Shown here one piece after another: positions 12,748 to 23,991 of a stretch of 25,379 bases of DNA. The DNA lies in IMG/VR virus record IMGVR_UViG_3300017598_000079, positions 1-25,379 of that record, one strand, 5' to 3'. The notes beneath the pieces were generated by a model. The model saw nothing but the letters and a program-made list of their open reading frames with translations, made no database searches and was not told the origin of the DNA. This stretch comes from a virus. The position numbers and the translations under genes were made by a program. How positions within the stretch are numbered: the first letter of the stretch is position 1; each line of letters begins with the position of its first letter.

Positions 12748-15700
12748 ATGATTAGTAAGAAGAAGTTTAGTGCTGATGGGTCTGTAAAAAGGTTCCTCTC
12801 AGACTTTATAATTAGGAGTAGTAACTATGCAAGACCATACTGTTATTACTATGATAACACCTTAAACCCAGATGGGTCAGAGGATGTACTACAAGATGTA
12901 GGGAGTGATTGGAGCTTCCCAGATAATCTATATAAAAGGGGGTCTGATGGTCCTAAGTCTGAGGATTTAGTAACAGTAACTAGTTGGCAAATAGTAGATA
13001 ATAGTATTCTTTTCTTTGATACTCCTTTATCTGGCTCAACAATATGGACAGAAGTAGCTACTACATCAGAAGAGTTTGGTGAGACTTTAACAGCCCCTTC
13101 AGTTGAGAGAGCAGAAGCAGCAGCAGACTCAGCAGCAGACTCAGCTACAGCAGCAAGAGTATCTGAGACTAATGCAGCAGCAAGTGAGACAGCAGCAGGT
13201 ATCTCTGAGACTAATGCTAGTGCCTCAGAAACAGCAGCAGAGGAATGGGCAGTAGCTAGTGAAGCAGCTAGTGATGGTACTAACTTAGCCTCTATACCTA
13301 CAAGTAATGCACTAGCTGGTACAACAGCTTTAACTAACACAGTTAATACTTTAGTGTTTGATGCTATTACTTATACAGGTACAGGAGCTAGTAATGATAT
13401 TGTAACTGGTATGGAGTCATGTGACTTGACAGCAAGTGATAATGGTAATGGTATTAAGCATGATAGAGCTGCTGGAGATTGTATAATCAAAGATGATTCA
13501 GGTGGAGGATATGCAGCGGATGGAAGTTTAAACACTTCTACTACTGATGCAGTACCAACTATGACTTCTAATACATCCCCGAGTGGTATAGCTTTTGGTA
13601 GTAATCATAATGATGGAGATGCTTCAAATTATAAAGCATTTGATGGAAGTGTGTCTTCATTGTATAGAGCAAATGTGAATAATAATCAATATTGTGGGTA
13701 TGTGCATGAAACTCCTGTGGCTATAAACAAATTCACTGTGAGTTCTTTATTGAACCAATCAGCTAGAGCAGCAAAGGATTTCAAGCTACAGGCTAGTAAC
13801 AACACAACAACAGGTCACGATGGAGATTGGACAGATTTAGTATCAATTACAGGAGAAACAAGTTGGAGTTCTTCTGGAGAAGTTAGGACTTTTACGCTAG
13901 TAAACGATACTGAATACAAAGCCCATAGAATTTATATTGTATCAAACAATGGTGATTCCACTTACATTGATATTCCAGAAATTGAGTTTATAGAAGCTTT
14001 ATCTGCTGGAGAGGCTATAGAGAGTGGTGATATTAAACTTGATGTACCTTTGAGTATGGTGCATATAAAAGATAGAGATGCTGCTCATCAACACTTTAGA
14101 TATAACGGGATGCAAGGTGCTACGAAGTACCTTAGTACAGATAGCACAAATATAGAGTACACAGAAGTACAAGGACTTACTTCATTTAATTCTGATGGCT
14201 TTACAGTAGGAACTAATGTAGCAAATAATGGTAGCGGAGATGACTACATAGCCTACCAAACTATATACACTCATCTACAATGGGGATTAACTAATCATGG
14301 TAAGAGATATGTAGTAGCTTATAATCCTAAGACTAATGAAGTATTACCTATGTGGATTGGTAGTGGATTAGCTGGACATAAGATACCAAGTCCTGTTGGT
14401 GTAGCTTTAGACTATATTGAGGTTAAAAACTTAGATGATGGAACTAATCATTGGAATGTATTTTATGGAGATAAAGACAAGAAGTTAATACTAAACCTTA
14501 CCAACACAGCAGTAGATGCTACCAAATGGAATAATACTGCACCTACTGTTAATGATTTTACATTGGGTGCGGATGATGATGTAAATACTTCAAACAATAC
14601 TCATGTAGGCTACGGAAAAGCTAAATCAGAAACATGGACAATAGTACCATATACAGGTACAGGTGTAGCTGGTAACTTTGTTGAGACTAAAGATGTTAAT
14701 GGTGTAGCTAGGAAGCCTAGAAGAGTTGTTGTTAGGAGAGTAGATTCTACTGGGGACTGGGCGATACATGATACAGAAAGAGATACTTCTACTGGCAATG
14801 ACAAGGTTCTATATTATAACTATTCTAATGCAGAAGATGAAAATACATTATTTAGTATAGATATATTATCAAGCGGGTTTATACTAAAAAACACACACGC
14901 ATACTGGAATGCTTCAGGAGGTCAATACATAGCCCTAGTTTACTTCGACTCTAACTCAGATGGTGGTGGTAGTTATGATGACTTAGCATCTGATACAACT
15001 CAGGTTAATATAGACGATAGACAGACTATGTTCACTAAAGGTTTTGTAGAGGGTAAAGCATATAACACAGCTGAGTACAATACAGGCACAGAGACTATCA
15101 CACCTAATGGTGGTTGGCTAGAGGGTAATAACTATCTTTATAAAGTTGAGGGTGGTGATTGGTTTGCTACTTTAGATGAGCCTAATTTTGGTAGTATTGC
15201 TTATGGTCATTCACTTGTTGGTGGAAAATGGGTTGATTATGACTATGTAGCGGATGGTAGTACAAACACATCAGTTGAAGATAGTGTACCTACAATGACC
15301 TCTGATACTGCACCAAGTGGTTTAGTTACTTATTCTACTTACTCAGGTGGTAGTGCATGGAGTTGTTTCAAAGATGCAAATGGAGAAGTGTTATATACAG
15401 CTACATCGAATGTAAGATTAGGTTATGGTAGAGATGAAGCTACTGTTTCTAACAAGTATTCATTAACAGCTTTCACAAGTGCTAATAGAGCTTTCAAGGA
15501 TTGGAAGTATCAAGGCAGTAATGACACAACTGATGGCTCTGATGGAACATGGGATGATTTAGATACTGTAACTGGTGAGACATCATGGGGTTCTTATGAG
15601 AAGAGAACATTTACTTGTACTAACGGAACAGCCTATAAACACTATAGAGTTCTAGTATCAGCCAACAATGGTGATGGTACATACATGCAGATGGCTCAAA

Positions 15701-16158
15701 TGGAAATGATAGAAGCTCAACTGGATTCAGGTACAGCCTTAACAACTCCTATAACATACCATGACAAAGTAATAGAAGTAGCTGTAGGTGAGCCAGTAGA
15801 TACAGCAGAGTTTAATTATCCTGATACAGTGTTAGATGTGCTTAGAGTTGAAGAGGTTAGAAGCAAGAATCAATGTACAGCATGGGTAGCTGTAGACGCT
15901 ACTACAACTCCAGTAACATTAAGAGATGGTTTTAATCACAGTGATGTTGTATCCATGTCAACTGGTGTGTTTAGGTTTTATTTTGAATCCAGAATGGATA
16001 ATACTAATTATGTAGCAATGGGTTCATCAAGCGTTTCTAATTTTATCATGGTGGACAATAAAACACTTGATTATGTAGAGATTAGTGATAAAAATTACAA
16101 TGGAACCTTACATGCTGATAGACTCAAAGGGATAGCTATTATTGGAGGAAAAGAATAA
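12748..16158 (+). CDS. Tail fibre with two discoidin-like domains
   Basis: An 1136-residue host-recognition fibre, expected to attach as trimers near the nozzle. Residues 1-115 resemble the T7 gp17 tail-binding region (FIIRSSNYARPYCYYYD; ILFFDTPLSGSTIWTEV). Residues about 117-175 are an Ala/Ser/Glu coiled-coil shaft with repeats of SETNAAASETAA type. Two related beta-rich domains of F5/8-type C (galactose-binding-like) appearance lie at about 256-415 and 835-990. The middle part (about 420-830) and the end, after 990, are unknown beta-rich regions and probably include the receptor-binding tip. From about base 13,510 to the end, CpG dinucleotides become many times more frequent than anywhere else in the window, pointing to acquisition of the distal part from elsewhere. 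AAGGAG precedes the start. Confidence 0.85.
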   Translation: MISKKKFSADGSVKRFLSDFIIRSSNYARPYCYYYDNTLNPDGSEDVLQDVGSDWSFPDNLYKRGSDGPKSEDLVTVTSWQIVDNSILFFDTPLSGSTIWTEVATTSEEFGETLTAPSVERAEAAADSAADSATAARVSETNAAASETAAGISETNASASETAAEEWAVASEAASDGTNLASIPTSNALAGTTALTNTVNTLVFDAITYTGTGASNDIVTGMESCDLTASDNGNGIKHDRAAGDCIIKDDSGGGYAADGSLNTSTTDAVPTMTSNTSPSGIAFGSNHNDGDASNYKAFDGSVSSLYRANVNNNQYCGYVHETPVAINKFTVSSLLNQSARAAKDFKLQASNNTTTGHDGDWTDLVSITGETSWSSSGEVRTFTLVNDTEYKAHRIYIVSNNGDSTYIDIPEIEFIEALSAGEAIESGDIKLDVPLSMVHIKDRDAAHQHFRYNGMQGATKYLSTDSTNIEYTEVQGLTSFNSDGFTVGTNVANNGSGDDYIAYQTIYTHLQWGLTNHGKRYVVAYNPKTNEVLPMWIGSGLAGHKIPSPVGVALDYIEVKNLDDGTNHWNVFYGDKDKKLILNLTNTAVDATKWNNTAPTVNDFTLGADDDVNTSNNTHVGYGKAKSETWTIVPYTGTGVAGNFVETKDVNGVARKPRRVVVRRVDSTGDWAIHDTERDTSTGNDKVLYYNYSNAEDENTLFSIDILSSGFILKNTHAYWNASGGQYIALVYFDSNSDGGGSYDDLASDTTQVNIDDRQTMFTKGFVEGKAYNTAEYNTGTETITPNGGWLEGNNYLYKVEGGDWFATLDEPNFGSIAYGHSLVGGKWVDYDYVADGSTNTSVEDSVPTMTSDTAPSGLVTYSTYSGGSAWSCFKDANGEVLYTATSNVRLGYGRDEATVSNKYSLTAFTSANRAFKDWKYQGSNDTTDGSDGTWDDLDTVTGETSWGSYEKRTFTCTNGTAYKHYRVLVSANNGDGTYMQMAQMEMIEAQLDSGTALTTPITYHDKVIEVAVGEPVDTAEFNYPDTVLDVLRVEEVRSKNQCTAWVAVDATTTPVTLRDGFNHSDVVSMSTGVFRFYFESRMDNTNYVAMGSSSVSNFIMVDNKTLDYVEISDKNYNGTLHADRLKGIAIIGGKE
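13513..13998 (+). repeat. Fibre internal repeat, copy 1 (discoidin-like domain)
   Basis: Encodes fibre residues about 256-417. It opens ADGSLNTSTTDAVPTMTS, contains SARAAKDFKLQASNNTTTG and TGETSWSSSGEVRTFTL, and closes with VSNNGDSTYIDIPEIEFIEA. The order of these blocks and their spacing match copy 2 closely. The pattern is that of F5/8-type C carbohydrate-binding domains. Confidence 0.7.
15250..15717 (+). repeat. Fibre internal repeat, copy 2 (discoidin-like domain)
   Basis: Encodes fibre residues about 835-990. It opens ADGSTNTSVEDSVPTMTS, contains NRAFKDWKYQGSNDTTDG and TGETSWGSYEKRTFTCT, and closes with SANNGDGTYMQMAQMEMIEA, block for block the same as copy 1 with diverged residues between. 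The DNA is no longer nearly identical, so the duplication is old or the two copies came from separate sources. Confidence 0.7.
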
Positions 16159-17279: not shown

Positions 17280-17855
17280 ATGGCAGTACCTATTATTATA
17301 GCAATGGCAGCTATTAGTATGATTAGTTCAATTCAAGGCCAAGCAGCAGCAGCTAGAGAAGCTGATAGAAAAAGGTCTGCTGAGATAGCAGGGGCTAAGA
17401 CAGGGTTTCTTGCTACTCAGAGTTCTGTAAACATAATGAAAAGAGCTAATAGAGAGTCTTCTTTTAATGCTATCAATGAGGCTCTAAGAGCAGGAGCAGA
17501 ACAGGATAGGATAGTTAAAGCAGAGATAGAAGTAGCAGGTAGTAAGTTAAAGGCTTCTTCTGAGGGGCTTACTTCAGGGAGGTCTGTAGGAAGACAAGCA
17601 GTTAGTCTGTATGTACAAGGAAATAAAGCAGTACAACAAAGTAAGAGTCAGACTGCTAGTGTAATTAACCAAATAACAGACCAACAAGACAGTATGACAA
17701 ATGAGTTGAATAATAGGTTATTAACTTCATATCAACAAATGACAGCAGTACTTACTACACCAGGAAATATATATCAAGGTAATAATGGTGAGGTACTAAG
17801 TGCTGGTGTACAAGGGGCTTCTTCAGGAGTCTCTCTAAGCAGTGCAATTAAATAA
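17280..17855 (+). CDS. Internal virion protein B, T7 gp14-like
   Basis: A 191-residue protein matching T7 gp14 in length (196), order and pattern. The N-terminus is a hydrophobic helix (AVPIIIAMAAISMISSIQGQ) followed by AAAAREADRKRS, and the rest is Ala/Gln/Ser-rich helix (NAINEALRAGAEQDRIVKAE, VNIMKRANRE). In T7 this protein leaves the capsid first and sits in the outer membrane as part of the DNA-ejection channel. AAAGGAGACAAG precedes the ATG. The gp15-like gene follows eleven bases later, as in T7. Confidence 0.87.
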   Translation: MAVPIIIAMAAISMISSIQGQAAAAREADRKRSAEIAGAKTGFLATQSSVNIMKRANRESSFNAINEALRAGAEQDRIVKAEIEVAGSKLKASSEGLTSGRSVGRQAVSLYVQGNKAVQQSKSQTASVINQITDQQDSMTNELNNRLLTSYQQMTAVLTTPGNIYQGNNGEVLSAGVQGASSGVSLSSAIK

Positions 17856-17866
17856 GGAGAACTAAT

Positions 17867-20536
17867 ATGGCTAATGAAGCAATAAGATTATTTGGAGCTA
17901 ATGTAAATGAAGTTAATATTAGTACACAAGGACAGCAAGTAGCTCAAAGAGAGATGCAGAGAAATGATAATAACTTCTTTGACTTTGGTAAAGCTACTAG
18001 AGAAGTAGCACAAGTAAGTACTCAAATAGTAAATGCACAGAAGACTGTAGAGGCTGACAAAGCTAAACAAGATTACTTAGGTATGATTATGTCTGAGGGT
18101 TATAGAGATGCTTCTAGTGCTCTTAAGGCAGAGATGTTTGAGGGAATATACTCTGGACTAGGAGAACAATCAGATGCATATAAGGACTCTTTTATTTCTT
18201 ATTCATCAGGAGAGTACACAACTCAATATGATGCTAGAGGAGTAGAAGAAGATAATGCTCTCTACAATGCAGCAGGGGCGGCTAAGAAGGCATGGGACCA
18301 AGAGACAATAGAGGACTTATCAGACCCAGAGATTAATGAAGAACTTACTACTACTAATATAGCATCAGGTAAAGGATATGCAGACTTTGTAAATGAGTAT
18401 GTAGCAAACAATCCTAGACTAGATAAAGTAGTAGTAGGCAGGTCTTTAATGTCTGATGCATACTCTGAGATGTTATTAAATGTAGCTAATGCTCCTGCAA
18501 CTGAAGAAGGGTTAGCTAAAGCAATGGCTAATGTACAGGATATAAAAGAACCTTTAATGTCTCCTCAATTCCTAACTACTAAACAGAAACAAGGACAAGC
18601 ATATGTTAATTCTTTAGAAGTACAGTTAGGTAAAGTAGTAAAGGCTAAACAAGGTGAGATTAAACAAGGGTACTATGCACAGAGAGCTAATGCAGTTAAG
18701 TCTGGTAATAGAGTACCACCTGCTGATATAGAGAAAGCTATAGATGCTACTTCTAAGGATGTATTTGTAGCTACTAAAGAGAAGCTTAAGTATATGAAAC
18801 AATATAATGAGGTTACAGAATCAGATGCTTATAATGCTGAGTATGTACCTGGTGATAGACCTGGAATACTTCCTGACAATAAGACTCTTAAGGAAGCAAG
18901 ACAGAAAGAAGTGACAGGGGCTTTATACAATGCTTTTGTATCTAATGACTTTGAGGAGTTTACTAGAATAGCAGATAATGAGAGTGATATGATAGCAGAT
19001 ATGGGTAAAGGGATACTTACTCAGTTTAATAAGGCTAATACAGTAGAAGATATTACTGCTATTAATACTAGACTTAACCATATAAACTCTACTAACAAAG
19101 GCCCTACTATACTAAGACAAATGTTCTCAGATGATGAGTATGTTAGGATGGTAGCTATTAATAATCTATCTGAATTTGGTAGTGATAAGGACTTAATATC
19201 TATTAGAAATTCTGTAGACAGGTTCCAAGCTAATACACAAGCAATGAAACTGCCTCCTTCTGATAATGCTAATATATATGAGTATGCTAATAAGTTAGGG
19301 TCTCAAGGACAGAAGTACTTATCTATTGTAGAGTCTCTTAAGAATATTAGTGGTCAGTTAGCCTTAGATGAGTATAAGAATGTAGCTGAGAAGTTAATGG
19401 ACCAAGTACAACCTAATAGTGACCTTGGTGGAGCTAAAGAAGATGTATCTATGAGTTCAAGACCTGAAGCTGTTAATGATGAGAAGTTCTTAGAGACTAT
19501 GAATACAGAAGTAGTAAAAGGTAATAATAATGTAATATATATGAAAGATACTAAAGGTAATACTTCTGCTATAGTTAGAGATGACTTAGGAGGTACTGTT
19601 ACTATACAGAATCTTACTCCTTACTTAGAAGAGAATGAAGAACAAGAACTAATAGATGTTAAACAAGCAAGTATAGTAGAAGAGGAAAGTATTACTAGTG
19701 ACCCTATAGTAGGGGCTAAGGTAGCTACTAGAGCCTTTATTAGAGATACTATAGATAATGCAGGAGGTTTTGTTATGGCTACTCCTGAGGTACTAGGGGA
19801 CTTAGTCAGTAATATGACTAGTAGATTAGTAGAGCATATGAAGGATAGTATACCTGATTACCAAAGAGAACTAATAGGTATGGACACTAAAGATGAAGAA
19901 GCTTCTAAGGAACTAGCAAGAACCCTTATAGAGAATGAGATGGAGTTTATAGCTGAAGTTAATAATATAGGAGACTCAGCATCTAATAATAATACACTAG
20001 ATTCTGTACACCAAGTAGGAGTAGACTTTGCTAAACAAAATGCAGCTATGACTATGAGGAAAGCCTTAGAGATTAAGAAAGAAGTAGGTAAGCAACAGCC
20101 TGTTAGAGATGTATTAAAGCATCTTAAAAGAAGAGAAGGTGAGAGATTAGAAGTATATAATGATTCATTAGGTAATCCTACAGCAGGAGTTGGACATTTA
20201 CTTACTGCTAGTGAGAAGACTAAATATCCTGTAGGTACTAAGATACCTCAGAAACAAGTAGATGCTTGGTTAAAGCAAGACACTAAGAAAGCTATTAAAG
20301 CAGCAGAGGACCAAGCTAAAGAGTTTAAAATTAAATCTGAAGACTTTACTAATGCTCTAGTATCTGTAAACTTTCAATTAGGTACAGGGTGGACCTCTAA
20401 GTTCCCTAAAGCAGTTAAAGCTTTAAAAGAAGGTAAATGGAAGAAAGCTGTAGAAGAGATTAAAGATAGTAGATGGTATAAACAGACACCTGTTAGGGTA
20501 GAAGATTTTGAGGATGCTATTAATAGATTAGGATAA
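17867..20536 (+). CDS. Internal virion protein C, T7 gp15-like, with C-terminal GH24 lysozyme
   Basis: An 889-residue core protein, longer than T7 gp15 (747). Residues 1 to about 745 are helical and have the expected position of gp15, which forms the periplasmic part of the ejection channel. Residues about 750-889 are a T4-lysozyme-type (GH24) domain: REGERLEVYND holds E757 and D766, T772 lies in NPTAGVGHLLT, and the E-9-D-6-T spacing equals T4 E11/D20/T26. FTNALVSVNFQLGTG and SRWYKQTPVR also match T4 lysozyme. The domain would cut peptidoglycan during DNA entry. In T7 the cell-wall enzyme is instead a transglycosylase at the N-terminus of gp16. No frameshift separates the parts. Confidence 0.88.
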   Translation: MANEAIRLFGANVNEVNISTQGQQVAQREMQRNDNNFFDFGKATREVAQVSTQIVNAQKTVEADKAKQDYLGMIMSEGYRDASSALKAEMFEGIYSGLGEQSDAYKDSFISYSSGEYTTQYDARGVEEDNALYNAAGAAKKAWDQETIEDLSDPEINEELTTTNIASGKGYADFVNEYVANNPRLDKVVVGRSLMSDAYSEMLLNVANAPATEEGLAKAMANVQDIKEPLMSPQFLTTKQKQGQAYVNSLEVQLGKVVKAKQGEIKQGYYAQRANAVKSGNRVPPADIEKAIDATSKDVFVATKEKLKYMKQYNEVTESDAYNAEYVPGDRPGILPDNKTLKEARQKEVTGALYNAFVSNDFEEFTRIADNESDMIADMGKGILTQFNKANTVEDITAINTRLNHINSTNKGPTILRQMFSDDEYVRMVAINNLSEFGSDKDLISIRNSVDRFQANTQAMKLPPSDNANIYEYANKLGSQGQKYLSIVESLKNISGQLALDEYKNVAEKLMDQVQPNSDLGGAKEDVSMSSRPEAVNDEKFLETMNTEVVKGNNNVIYMKDTKGNTSAIVRDDLGGTVTIQNLTPYLEENEEQELIDVKQASIVEEESITSDPIVGAKVATRAFIRDTIDNAGGFVMATPEVLGDLVSNMTSRLVEHMKDSIPDYQRELIGMDTKDEEASKELARTLIENEMEFIAEVNNIGDSASNNNTLDSVHQVGVDFAKQNAAMTMRKALEIKKEVGKQQPVRDVLKHLKRREGERLEVYNDSLGNPTAGVGHLLTASEKTKYPVGTKIPQKQVDAWLKQDTKKAIKAAEDQAKEFKIKSEDFTNALVSVNFQLGTGWTSKFPKAVKALKEGKWKKAVEEIKDSRWYKQTPVRVEDFEDAINRLG

Positions 20537-20547
20537 GGAGGAAGGAT

Positions 20548-23500
20548 ATGGCAGAACAAGGACAGAGAGAGAGCACAGCAGTAGATTATTGGGTAACACA
20601 GAATCCTTCAGGGATGGCATATCACTATCCAGAGACTAAGTTTGAACCTACTAATGATATTAGAGGTATACTAGATACTGAAGATGTAGAGTTTAAAACA
20701 TACTTTGACTCTTCAGATACACAAAATAAGAGAGCTATGTTAGGTGCTAATAATACAGCAGATGCAATAAAGATAGCTCAAAGAAGAGAAGTCTTTAATG
20801 AAGCTGAGAGAGCAATAGACCAAGATGGTATAATCACTCAGATAGGTATGAGTATTGTTCCTGCTGTAGCTAGTCCTACAAGTTTACTTCCATTTGGGGT
20901 AGTCTTTAAAGGGGCTCAAGTAGCTAAGACTACTAACAGACTTACTTCAGGTTTAGTAGGAGTAGGTGCTGGTGGTGTTACAGGTGCAGGAGCTAATATA
21001 GCAGATGAAGCCTTATTTGATTTACAAGGGATGCCTACTAACTATGTAGGTGCAGGAGCTATAGGATTTATGTTTGGAGGAGGTTTAGGCTTCTTAGGAG
21101 GTGTCCTATCAGGCCCTAATGCTAAGAATGTAGCTAACTCTATAGACCCTAAGAATGACTCATATACTAGAGATTACCAACAAGACCCTTATATAAAGGT
21201 AGAGATGGATGAGAATGGTGTACCTAAGTTACAAGATATAGGACAGATGGAGAAGTCATTTACTGATAAGCTTCCTCTTATAGGGGGATGGTTAAGAAGT
21301 GATGTACATACTGTATACCAATCTGATAGTCCTTTACTAAGAGGATGGATGGGTAGAATAGCATCTGCTACTACTTCTCTTAAAGACTCAGCAGGTAATG
21401 TAATGCCTATACTTAAGACAGGTGTAGATATTAAAAGAGAAACTAAAGGAGTACATAATGTACTTACTAGAGAAGTTAATGATGTATATGCTGAGGCTAG
21501 AACTAAAGGGTACTCAAATGACCTAGAAACATTCAATAAGGATGTATGGGGTGTGTATATGGAAGCACTCAATCAACAGAGAGCAGATGCAGCTATGTTT
21601 GCTAATCAGAAGACAGCAGGTATGCCAACAGGTACAAAGAAAGTAAGTACTATAGATTACCTTAATGATATACCAGGTGCATCAGGTGAAGGTGTTGGAC
21701 CAGTAAGAGATAGAAACTTTATAGCTAAAGGGAATAAACAGGTTGATGACCCTGATTTTACTCCTAGAAAAAGAACTGGTGGATTATTAGATGAATTATT
21801 AGATGATTTAGATGTACCTGATGTACCTGAAAAGGTATGGGTTAAACAAACACCAGAAGAAAAAGCAGCAACACAGATAGCTCTTGATAAAGAAAAGGAT
21901 GCTTTTGATACATCTATTAAAACTGAAGGCATGAAAGAACCTGTAATAGTAGGATATGAAGAAGGTAAGCTTGTAATACTAGAAGGTAACCACAGAATAT
22001 CTGCTGCTAATAGAATTGGAATGGATGATGTTCCTCTTGTATACACAGATAAAGTGCCTGATGATATGAAGTTTAAAGAAACTGCTAAAGGTATTACTGA
22101 TGCTGAGAGAAATGCTCTACTAAAAGCTAATAGAGATGCTATGGATGAGTACTACAATACTAGAAGTATAGAGTTTAAAGGGGAACCTTCTCTTAATAAA
22201 GCAGCAGAGTCTTATAGAAAATACTTCCAAGATATGTTAGATAGAAGTCAGAAGTCAGGGATAAAAGAACTACAAGGAATGAACCCTAATAGACTATATG
22301 CTCCTAGAACATACAACTATAAAGCTATTAAAGATGGTAGTGTACCTCAAGAGAAAGTGTACTCTGAAGTTAGAGAAGGTTTAGCTAATGATGTTAGAAA
22401 TGCAGGTATGACTAAGGAAGAATTAGAAGTAGCTACTAAAGATATTGTTAATAAACTTAATGAGAGTGCTTTTGACTTGAATAACTTAACTACTTCTTAT
22501 ATGGTTAAGGACCTACCATTCAGTACACACCTTAAGAGTAAGAAGCTATACCTTAATGAGTCTTTTATGCCTAATGTGGTTAAGAGTAACTTTGAAGAAG
22601 TAACAGGAGCTTATCACTATAAGATGTCAGGCAGACAATCTACACAGTATGCTTTTGGTACTGATAACTTAGATGAAGTAATGAAGATGGTTAGAGAAGA
22701 ACACCTATCAAAAGGGGTGATGAGTAATGAGCAAGAGATACAAGCATTTGAGAGGACTGTTAGAGATTTAATGGGAGACTTAAGAATGAATCAATTAGCT
22801 GATACTCCTTCTTGGTCTTTTACTAGGAACTTAACTTCTTTTAACTCAGCTAGACTAGGTGGGGGCTTTGGAGGTAATCAATTTATAGAGCTAGCTTCTA
22901 GTATTATGTTTAATGGTACTAAGGCACTACTATCTGGTAGAATGTTTACATCCCTAAAGAATACTAAAGAGTTACTATATACAAAAGGTAAGACTGATGA
23001 TTTTGCTAACTATTTAATAGGTAGTGGGTATATGGAAGATGCATTACATACTAGTAGGATTAATAGATATGCTGATACTGAGTCTGGGTTTAATTCAGGA
23101 GTTGTAGAGAATAAGCTTAACTGGATTAATGATAAGCTAATGAAGTATAATGGTATGAGGTATTTTATGGGAGTAATGGAAGACTATACTGGGGCCGCTG
23201 TAGTTACACAACTAAAAGCAGGTAAAGTAGACCCTAAGATGTTAGCTAGATGGGGAATGACTGAAGCAGATGGTAAGACACTACAAGGTAAGCTAAAAGA
23301 TATTACTTTAGATGAAGGTTGGAACTTAGAAGGACTATCCCTTAAAGAAAGAGACCAATTACAGTTAGCTATATCAAGAGGTATTGCTGAAGTAGTAGTA
23401 CAAGGTGATAGTATACACTTACCAGCTTGGATGAAAGCACCAGGACAATTTACTAAAGTATTAACTCAGTTTATGAGATTCCCTCTTATAGCACAGGAAA

Positions 23501-23991
23501 CTTTACTAAGAAGAGGTATGAAAGAAGAACAAGCTAAGATGGCAGGAGCAGTTATGGGTTCTATAGGAACATATGTAGGGCTTAAGTATCTTAGAGAACA
23601 AGCAGCTATTAGTTTAGGTACAATACACCCTATAGATGCTAAGTATGACTATGAGAACTATGAGGATGAAGATTGGTTAAGAGTTACAGGTGAGGCCTTA
23701 AACTATACTGCTCCTCTAGGTTTTATGAGTAGTGTATACAATTATGGGGCTATAGCTACTGGTAATAATGAACTAGGTAGAGAATGGACAAGTAAGAATG
23801 GTATGTCATCTCTATTAGGCCCATCAGGAGGACTAGGAGAAGACTTAATTCAAATAATGAGGTCAGGAGTAGAAGGAGATTTTAAAGATGAAAGGTCTTT
23901 ACAAAGATGGAAGTCTTTAGTCCCTTTTAATAACTTACCAATTATAAATGAAGCTGGTAAATATTTAATAGAAGAATATGGAGATAAGTAA
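20548..23991 (+). CDS. Internal virion protein D, T7 gp16-like, with ParB/Srx-like segment
   Basis: An 1147-residue ejection protein (T7 gp16 is 1318) following the gp15-like gene. The N-terminus (STAVDYWVTQNPSGMAYHYP) is not a lytic transglycosylase. Residues about 95-195 contain hydrophobic Gly/Ala-rich segments (GVGAGGVTGAGANIAD; IGFMFGGGLGFLGGVLSG) that could cross a membrane. Around 462-510 is a ParB N-terminal/sulfiredoxin-like stretch: MKEPVIVGYEEGKLVILEGN, then HRISAANRIGMDDVPLV, with GNHR at 480-483. The later region (TKVLTQFMRFPLIAQETLLR, GAVMGSIGTYVGLKYL) has the look of the gp16 C-terminal membrane-associated part. The protein would enter the host and line the inner-membrane end of the DNA channel. 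Family call rests on order, size and these regions. Confidence 0.8.
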   Translation: MAEQGQRESTAVDYWVTQNPSGMAYHYPETKFEPTNDIRGILDTEDVEFKTYFDSSDTQNKRAMLGANNTADAIKIAQRREVFNEAERAIDQDGIITQIGMSIVPAVASPTSLLPFGVVFKGAQVAKTTNRLTSGLVGVGAGGVTGAGANIADEALFDLQGMPTNYVGAGAIGFMFGGGLGFLGGVLSGPNAKNVANSIDPKNDSYTRDYQQDPYIKVEMDENGVPKLQDIGQMEKSFTDKLPLIGGWLRSDVHTVYQSDSPLLRGWMGRIASATTSLKDSAGNVMPILKTGVDIKRETKGVHNVLTREVNDVYAEARTKGYSNDLETFNKDVWGVYMEALNQQRADAAMFANQKTAGMPTGTKKVSTIDYLNDIPGASGEGVGPVRDRNFIAKGNKQVDDPDFTPRKRTGGLLDELLDDLDVPDVPEKVWVKQTPEEKAATQIALDKEKDAFDTSIKTEGMKEPVIVGYEEGKLVILEGNHRISAANRIGMDDVPLVYTDKVPDDMKFKETAKGITDAERNALLKANRDAMDEYYNTRSIEFKGEPSLNKAAESYRKYFQDMLDRSQKSGIKELQGMNPNRLYAPRTYNYKAIKDGSVPQEKVYSEVREGLANDVRNAGMTKEELEVATKDIVNKLNESAFDLNNLTTSYMVKDLPFSTHLKSKKLYLNESFMPNVVKSNFEEVTGAYHYKMSGRQSTQYAFGTDNLDEVMKMVREEHLSKGVMSNEQEIQAFERTVRDLMGDLRMNQLADTPSWSFTRNLTSFNSARLGGGFGGNQFIELASSIMFNGTKALLSGRMFTSLKNTKELLYTKGKTDDFANYLIGSGYMEDALHTSRINRYADTESGFNSGVVENKLNWINDKLMKYNGMRYFMGVMEDYTGAAVVTQLKAGKVDPKMLARWGMTEADGKTLQGKLKDITLDEGWNLEGLSLKERDQLQLAISRGIAEVVVQGDSIHLPAWMKAPGQFTKVLTQFMRFPLIAQETLLRRGMKEEQAKMAGAVMGSIGTYVGLKYLREQAAISLGTIHPIDAKYDYENYEDEDWLRVTGEALNYTAPLGFMSSVYNYGAIATGNNELGREWTSKNGMSSLLGPSGGLGEDLIQIMRSGVEGDFKDERSLQRWKSLVPFNNLPIINEAGKYLIEEYGDK

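Follow-up and report, generated by a model that had tools for sequence, protein, structure and literature searches.

A gp16-type ejection protein encoded by a T7-like phage carries, within an in-frame insertion of 154 residues, a domain whose placement in the ParB/sulfiredoxin superfamily is supported by profile matches and by a predicted alpha+beta fold (residues ~428–505). A ParB/Srx-like unit had been proposed inside this protein by an earlier, sequence-only reading, and the profile, fold, and empty-site evidence bears that proposal out.

The gp16-type protein and its neighbourhood

The window, meaning the whole 25,379-nt stretch analysed (IMG/VR record IMGVR_UViG_3300017598_000079), is a T7-like morphogenesis region that runs from the end of a DNA polymerase gene through genes for an exonuclease, a ribonucleotide reductase small subunit, portal, capsid assembly protein, and capsid to those for tail tubular proteins, a tail/fibre protein, the ejection-type proteins, and DNA packaging. 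A gene for a MazG-like nucleotide pyrophosphohydrolase (1576–1944; PHROG 671, E=3.3e-13) lies in its metabolism region, and the 1136-aa tail/fibre-type protein (12748–16158) has two similar stretches, at residues ~250–420 and 841–1010, with a match to PHROG 17517 that also consists of two stretches. The features relevant to the ejection proteins are as follows:

17280–17855, + strand: probable gp14-type ejection protein, from position and gene order only
17867–20536, + strand: gp15-type ejection protein with a C-terminal phage lysozyme domain
20548–23991, + strand: gp16-type internal virion (ejection) protein, 1147 aa (PHROG 342, family profile, neighbours)
20836–21117, + strand: Gly/Ala-rich hydrophobic region, residues 97–190, upstream of the insert (alignment to 7eyb)
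21625–22086, + strand: in-frame insertion, residues 360–513 (absent from the closest relative, L001)
21625–21828, + strand: N-terminal part of the insertion, an acidic/proline-containing linker including GGLLDELLDDLDVPDVP, residues 360–427
21829–22062, + strand: ParB/sulfiredoxin-superfamily domain, residues ~428–505 (Pfam, PHROG, profile, predicted fold)
21928–21942, + strand: Box I (C motif) loop GMKEP, residues 461–465 (alignment; motif definition from PMC12704722)
21982–21996, + strand: P motif (Box II, GxxR) EGNHR, residues 479–483 (alignment; PMC12704722)

Judged by homology, the product of 20548–23991, whose frame is unbroken, is a T7 gp16-type ejection protein. Against PHROG 342 (“internal virion protein with endolysin domain”) it scores E=8.2e-55, and the profile of its family matches the solved structures of T7 gp16 (chain 7eyb_I, E=8.7e-7) and of an internal virion protein (9sfn_G, E=4.3e-11). 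The gene is flanked by a gp15-type gene and a DNA packaging protein gene, and the likeness to T7 gp16 and PHROG 342 includes both the scaffold family and this gene order, with a lysozyme-bearing gp15-type protein and a packaging gene. By analogy, the protein would be carried in the virion and enter the host upon ejection. It differs from T7 gp16 in its extra ParB/Srx insert and in lacking a family match to the N-terminal peptidoglycan transglycosylase (ParB_N being the sole Pfam match), a domain that is present in T7 gp16 and is not universal in the gp16-type family. Instead, a lysozyme domain is found on the window’s gp15-type protein, at residues 754–873 (20126–20485; Pfam PF00959, E=6.6e-14), and that protein also matches PHROG 2083, internal virion lysozyme motif. 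This arrangement fits the known swapping of domains between the gp16- and gp15-type proteins of different phages; in K1E and K1-5, for example, the lysozyme is carried by the gp15-type protein (PMC8954989). The same Pfam domain is present at the C-terminus of the gp15-type protein of L005 and is not reported in the counterparts of L001, L004, and CRP-143, so that this hydrolase module seems to be exchanged between relatives. The product of 17280–17855 has no PHROG family match.

Relatives of the gp16-type protein are few. The closest, L001, is an IMG/VR sequence 71% identical overall, and the sole annotated phage record with a relative is that of Roseobacter phage CRP-143 (Autographiviridae; 39% identical). 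IMG/VR scans for members of the family gave only L001, L004, L005, L008, and L009 together with a distant partial match, L010, and the family was not found in a scan of genome contigs; the survey of the insertion site therefore rests on few phages.

The insertion and its empty site

Alignment with gp16-like relatives, as the sequence-only reading had suggested, defines the insertion. Where the window protein reads KTAGM, 154 residues, and then KGITDAERNALL, L001 reads KTAGM-NT-KDITNSERDALL, with two residues at the site. The two proteins are 59% identical in the left flank and 78% in the right, and 63% and 65% identical over the 60 residues adjoining each junction. The insert is known from a single metagenomic record, and its third-position GC (0.129) lies below that of every equal-length window in the remainder of the gene (0.161–0.297, compared post hoc), both of which might be taken as marks of a chimera assembled from two sequences. 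Such an artefact is nevertheless extremely improbable: both junctions lie in an unbroken frame, both flanks match the same relative at the identities given above, and the overall GC of the insert is ordinary (0.348 vs. 0.364). The excess of GAA over GAG codons already remarked on held when counted across the gene (12:0 in the insert vs. 42:25 elsewhere; Fisher p=0.014, post hoc), and the codon-level composition, with its low GC3 and exclusive use of GAA, fits a separate origin of the insert as a post hoc observation. When the insert alone served as query, no close relative was found in IMG/VR, although sequences close to the window may be missing from the records searched, and only one metagenomic phage is known to possess an insert-bearing gp16.

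The N-terminal part of the insertion, residues 360–427, is modelled with low confidence (pLDDT blocks of 32–53). An Asp/Leu/Pro stretch had been taken for the insertion linker; the insertion is real, but the stretch lies inside it, upstream of the domain. The limits of 462–510 first proposed for the ParB unit shift in a similar way, the unit itself being real, with the insert now covering 360–513 and the domain ~428–505. In a model of the full-length protein, the insert lies between two predicted long helices (residues 326–356 and 506–538), which are among the confident parts of a prediction that is otherwise weak; with a mean pLDDT of 47 and insert blocks of 23–49, it is too poor for the domain to be placed from it.

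At the same site, CRP-143, L004, and L009 possess helical-looking, charged segments that differ in length, L008 has almost nothing, and the available sequence of L005 stops there, which suggests that the site is length-variable. The six relatives compared at the site (L001, CRP-143, L004, L005, L008, and L009) gave no match to the ParB-type profile. Charged helical segments at this gp16 site were recorded in L002:19866–23363, L004:4911–8411, and L009:3331–6624.

The ParB/sulfiredoxin-superfamily domain

ParB_N (PF02195) was the only Pfam model to match the window gp16 at E<=1. It aligned with residues 451–501 (E=1e-3 with the whole protein and 4.4e-5 with the segment alone), with scores of 19.5 and 23.9 bits, respectively, that fall short of the model’s curated threshold (26.3 bits). 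PHROG ParB families matched more strongly, at E=2.1e-8 with the whole protein and 7.5e-10 with the segment. Relatives of the domain were collected first as Bacillus phage G gp284 and a Streptomyces plasmid protein and then by an IMG/VR scan with ParB-type relatives, which gave 20 loci, most with EGNHR. A profile of 17 relatives, excluding the window, matched the window gp16 at E=1e-17, a value that is somewhat favourable because the relatives had been collected by a query containing the window; the same profile matched none of six sister gp16 proteins, 200 shuffled copies, or the window’s other stop-to-stop frames of 60 or more codons. A profile of seven diverse members alone gave E=2e-16, and at the sequence level the relatives’ profile picks out ParB, Noc, sulfiredoxin, SerK, and SbnI as well.

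A structural model of the insert, built from an alignment with EGNHR-type relatives, is confident in its core (residues 447–506, block means of 81–92) and poor in its first 80 residues. Foldseek and VIA comparisons with this model returned ParB, Noc, KorB, PadC, sulfiredoxin, SerK, and SbnI among the matches, and the matches listed belong to the ParB/sulfiredoxin superfamily; since the VIA Z is at most 6.7, the sequence evidence weighs most. A scan of a defence library gave weak ParB-fold matches only. The outcome that would have told against the original proposal, an unbroken helical fold lacking any ParB/Srx match, did not emerge, and profile and fold were both positive.

Five positions are constant in an 18-row alignment of the domain (G461, P465, G480, R483, and A486), and they are the counterparts of two elements defined by Kaljevic et al., the Box I loop and the P motif of Box II (PMC12704722). 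Both motifs, GMKEP at 461–465 and GNHR at 480–483, are intact in the window domain, and the signature first picked out by eye, GNHR and the AANRIGMDDVP that follows, is found as EGNHR at 479–483 (21982–21996) and AANRIGMDDVP at 486–496. Kaljevic et al. purified 28 proteins of this fold; 11 of them bound CTP, ATP, or GTP and the other 17 showed no NTP binding, while changing the Arg of GxxR to Ala abolished binding in the family members tested (PMC12704722); R483 is the equivalent residue in the window. Since nucleotide specificity is not predictable from sequence (PMC12704722), the nucleotide of the window domain is left unnamed.

These constant residues also bear on the view that the site tolerates variation in length and that the ParB fold simply stands where other relatives have a helical segment, as a passive spacer with no ligand bound. 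The range at the site, from the variable segments of CRP-143, L004, and L009 to a nearly empty site in L008 and an empty one in L001, agrees with this, but a spacer would have no need of G461, P465, G480, and R483, all of which are kept. A recent arrival might still retain its motif residues, and the spacer remains an explanation that we consider unlikely.

The GxxR P motif and ParB fold liken the domain to the CTP-binding partition protein ParB and to Noc, whereas it differs from them in being embedded mid-protein without Box III, a helix-turn-helix, or a dimerisation domain. Box III (ENxxR) is absent from residues 484–513, residues 514 onward align with gp16 relatives and so leave no room for a helix-turn-helix, and TIGR00180 scores 23.5 bits, where its cut-off is 58.45. 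A canonical CTP-clamp partition ParB was rejected on these grounds. In noncanonical members of the family, Box III is often absent or divergent (PMC12704722).

Also considered was an enzyme akin to a kinase or to sulfiredoxin, with a small molecule or a protein of the host as its target, as sulfiredoxin, SerK, and SbnI appear in the profile and structure matches, and the segment is matched by the NCBIfam model of SerK at E=5.4e-4. That match, at 19.2 bits, is far under the model’s cut-off of 380 bits, and it begins at model position 33–35, past the catalytic Glu30, which the alignment does not reach. Sulfiredoxin has a GCHR motif with the catalytic Cys, and at the position of this Cys the window has Asn481. 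An enzyme of either kind is very unlikely.

The sequences closest to the window domain form a phage and plasmid clade that shares the EGNHR P motif and a G-x-x-E-P Box I loop and comprises phage G gp284 (35% identical over the domain), the 895-aa protein of a Streptomyces plasmid (34%), and L020–L039. Clade members are stand-alone or lie within unrelated large proteins, and none was found in a gp16-type protein. Several of the domains sit in open frames of 1329 to at least 2050 codons at IMG/VR loci, including very large phage proteins of 1577, at least 1812, and at least 2050 codons, which resemble the polyvalent injected proteins of PMC5512222. In five phage open frames with an EGNHR-type ParB (L023, L026, L028, L031, and L039; 458 to at least 2050 codons), Pfam finds nothing else.

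Possible roles during genome ejection

Where the domain would act can be approached through T7. Residues ~97–190 of the window protein align with T7 gp16 301–414 (family profile vs. 7eyb) and are a probable membrane segment, and a second, weak alignment places later residues at T7 gp16 787–905. In the published composite model, T7 gp16 1–228 is periplasmic, while gp16-C (411–1118) binds DNA and is placed in the host cytoplasm (PMC8954989). Because the insert lies between the two aligned stretches, it would by analogy be on the cytoplasmic side, a position that draws on T7 gp16 homology together with the composite model.

It is conceivable, with about an even chance in our estimation, that the insert is an NTP-binding-type ParB/Srx module that is ejected with gp16 to serve as a nucleotide-dependent switch or enzyme in the host cytoplasm. 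The phage has acquired a compact EGNHR-type module at a point of its gp16-type protein that two long helices flank; the domain would bind a nucleoside triphosphate through GNHR/R483, leave the virion together with gp16, refold with the gp16 C-terminal part at the cytoplasmic face of the inner membrane, and act, at the very start of infection, on a host target or on the phage DNA as it enters. Its action might be to cleave DNA, to gate contact with DNA, or to modify a host target. NTP binding, DNA cleavage, and DNA protection are all activities that the domain might share with other family members. Against this explanation stand the occurrence of the insert in one phage, the lack of NTP binding in 17 of the 28 proteins assayed, the missing Box III, the fact that no set of catalytic residues can be put forward, the poor modelling of the insert in the full-length prediction, and the dependence of cytoplasmic delivery on the T7 analogy.

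A more specific proposal is an NTP-regulated nuclease or nickase acting on host DNA or the entering genome. Such DNase roles have been proposed for the DdrB-type ParB domains of injected proteins, and nuclease activity is cited for several ParB-fold proteins (PMC5512222). The PHROG families matched include the names “nuclease” and “ParB-like partition nuclease”, but these are annotation only, PF02195 is the sole Pfam match, and no metal-binding acidic cluster is established in the window domain, all of which leaves the nuclease a doubtful candidate. A broader and similarly improbable suggestion is that T7-type ejectosomes use one helix-flanked site in gp16-C for exchangeable cargo, here loaded with an NTP-responsive ParB module; if true, the DNA-translocating hub would become a nucleotide-responsive device in the host cytoplasm.

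ParB-type domains in phage-injected proteins are known as part of polyvalent proteins (PMC5512222), and the window domain resembles these, including the DdrB type of phage P1, in lying within a large, presumably injected protein. The window gp16 differs from polyvalent proteins in that its carrier is an ejectosome component and in that Pfam recognises one domain beyond the scaffold, ParB_N, and not several. In the literature searched, no description was found of a ParB domain that interrupts a T7-type gp16 and is matched by an empty site in a relative; no paper had ParB, gp16, and internal virion protein together, ejection protein with ParB gave one match, which concerns a staphylococcal siphovirus, and the CRP-143 paper makes no mention of ParB or internal virion proteins. 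The insertion in a T7-type gp16 is an apparently new variant of a known theme.

Ejection proteins have so far been viewed mainly as pipework. A nucleotide-binding-type domain in one of them would imply that the ejectosome of T7-like phages can bring along a module that is active or regulated, in parallel with what has been proposed for larger phages with polyvalent proteins, and the natural empty-site relative, L001, offers a ready comparison for the module’s role.
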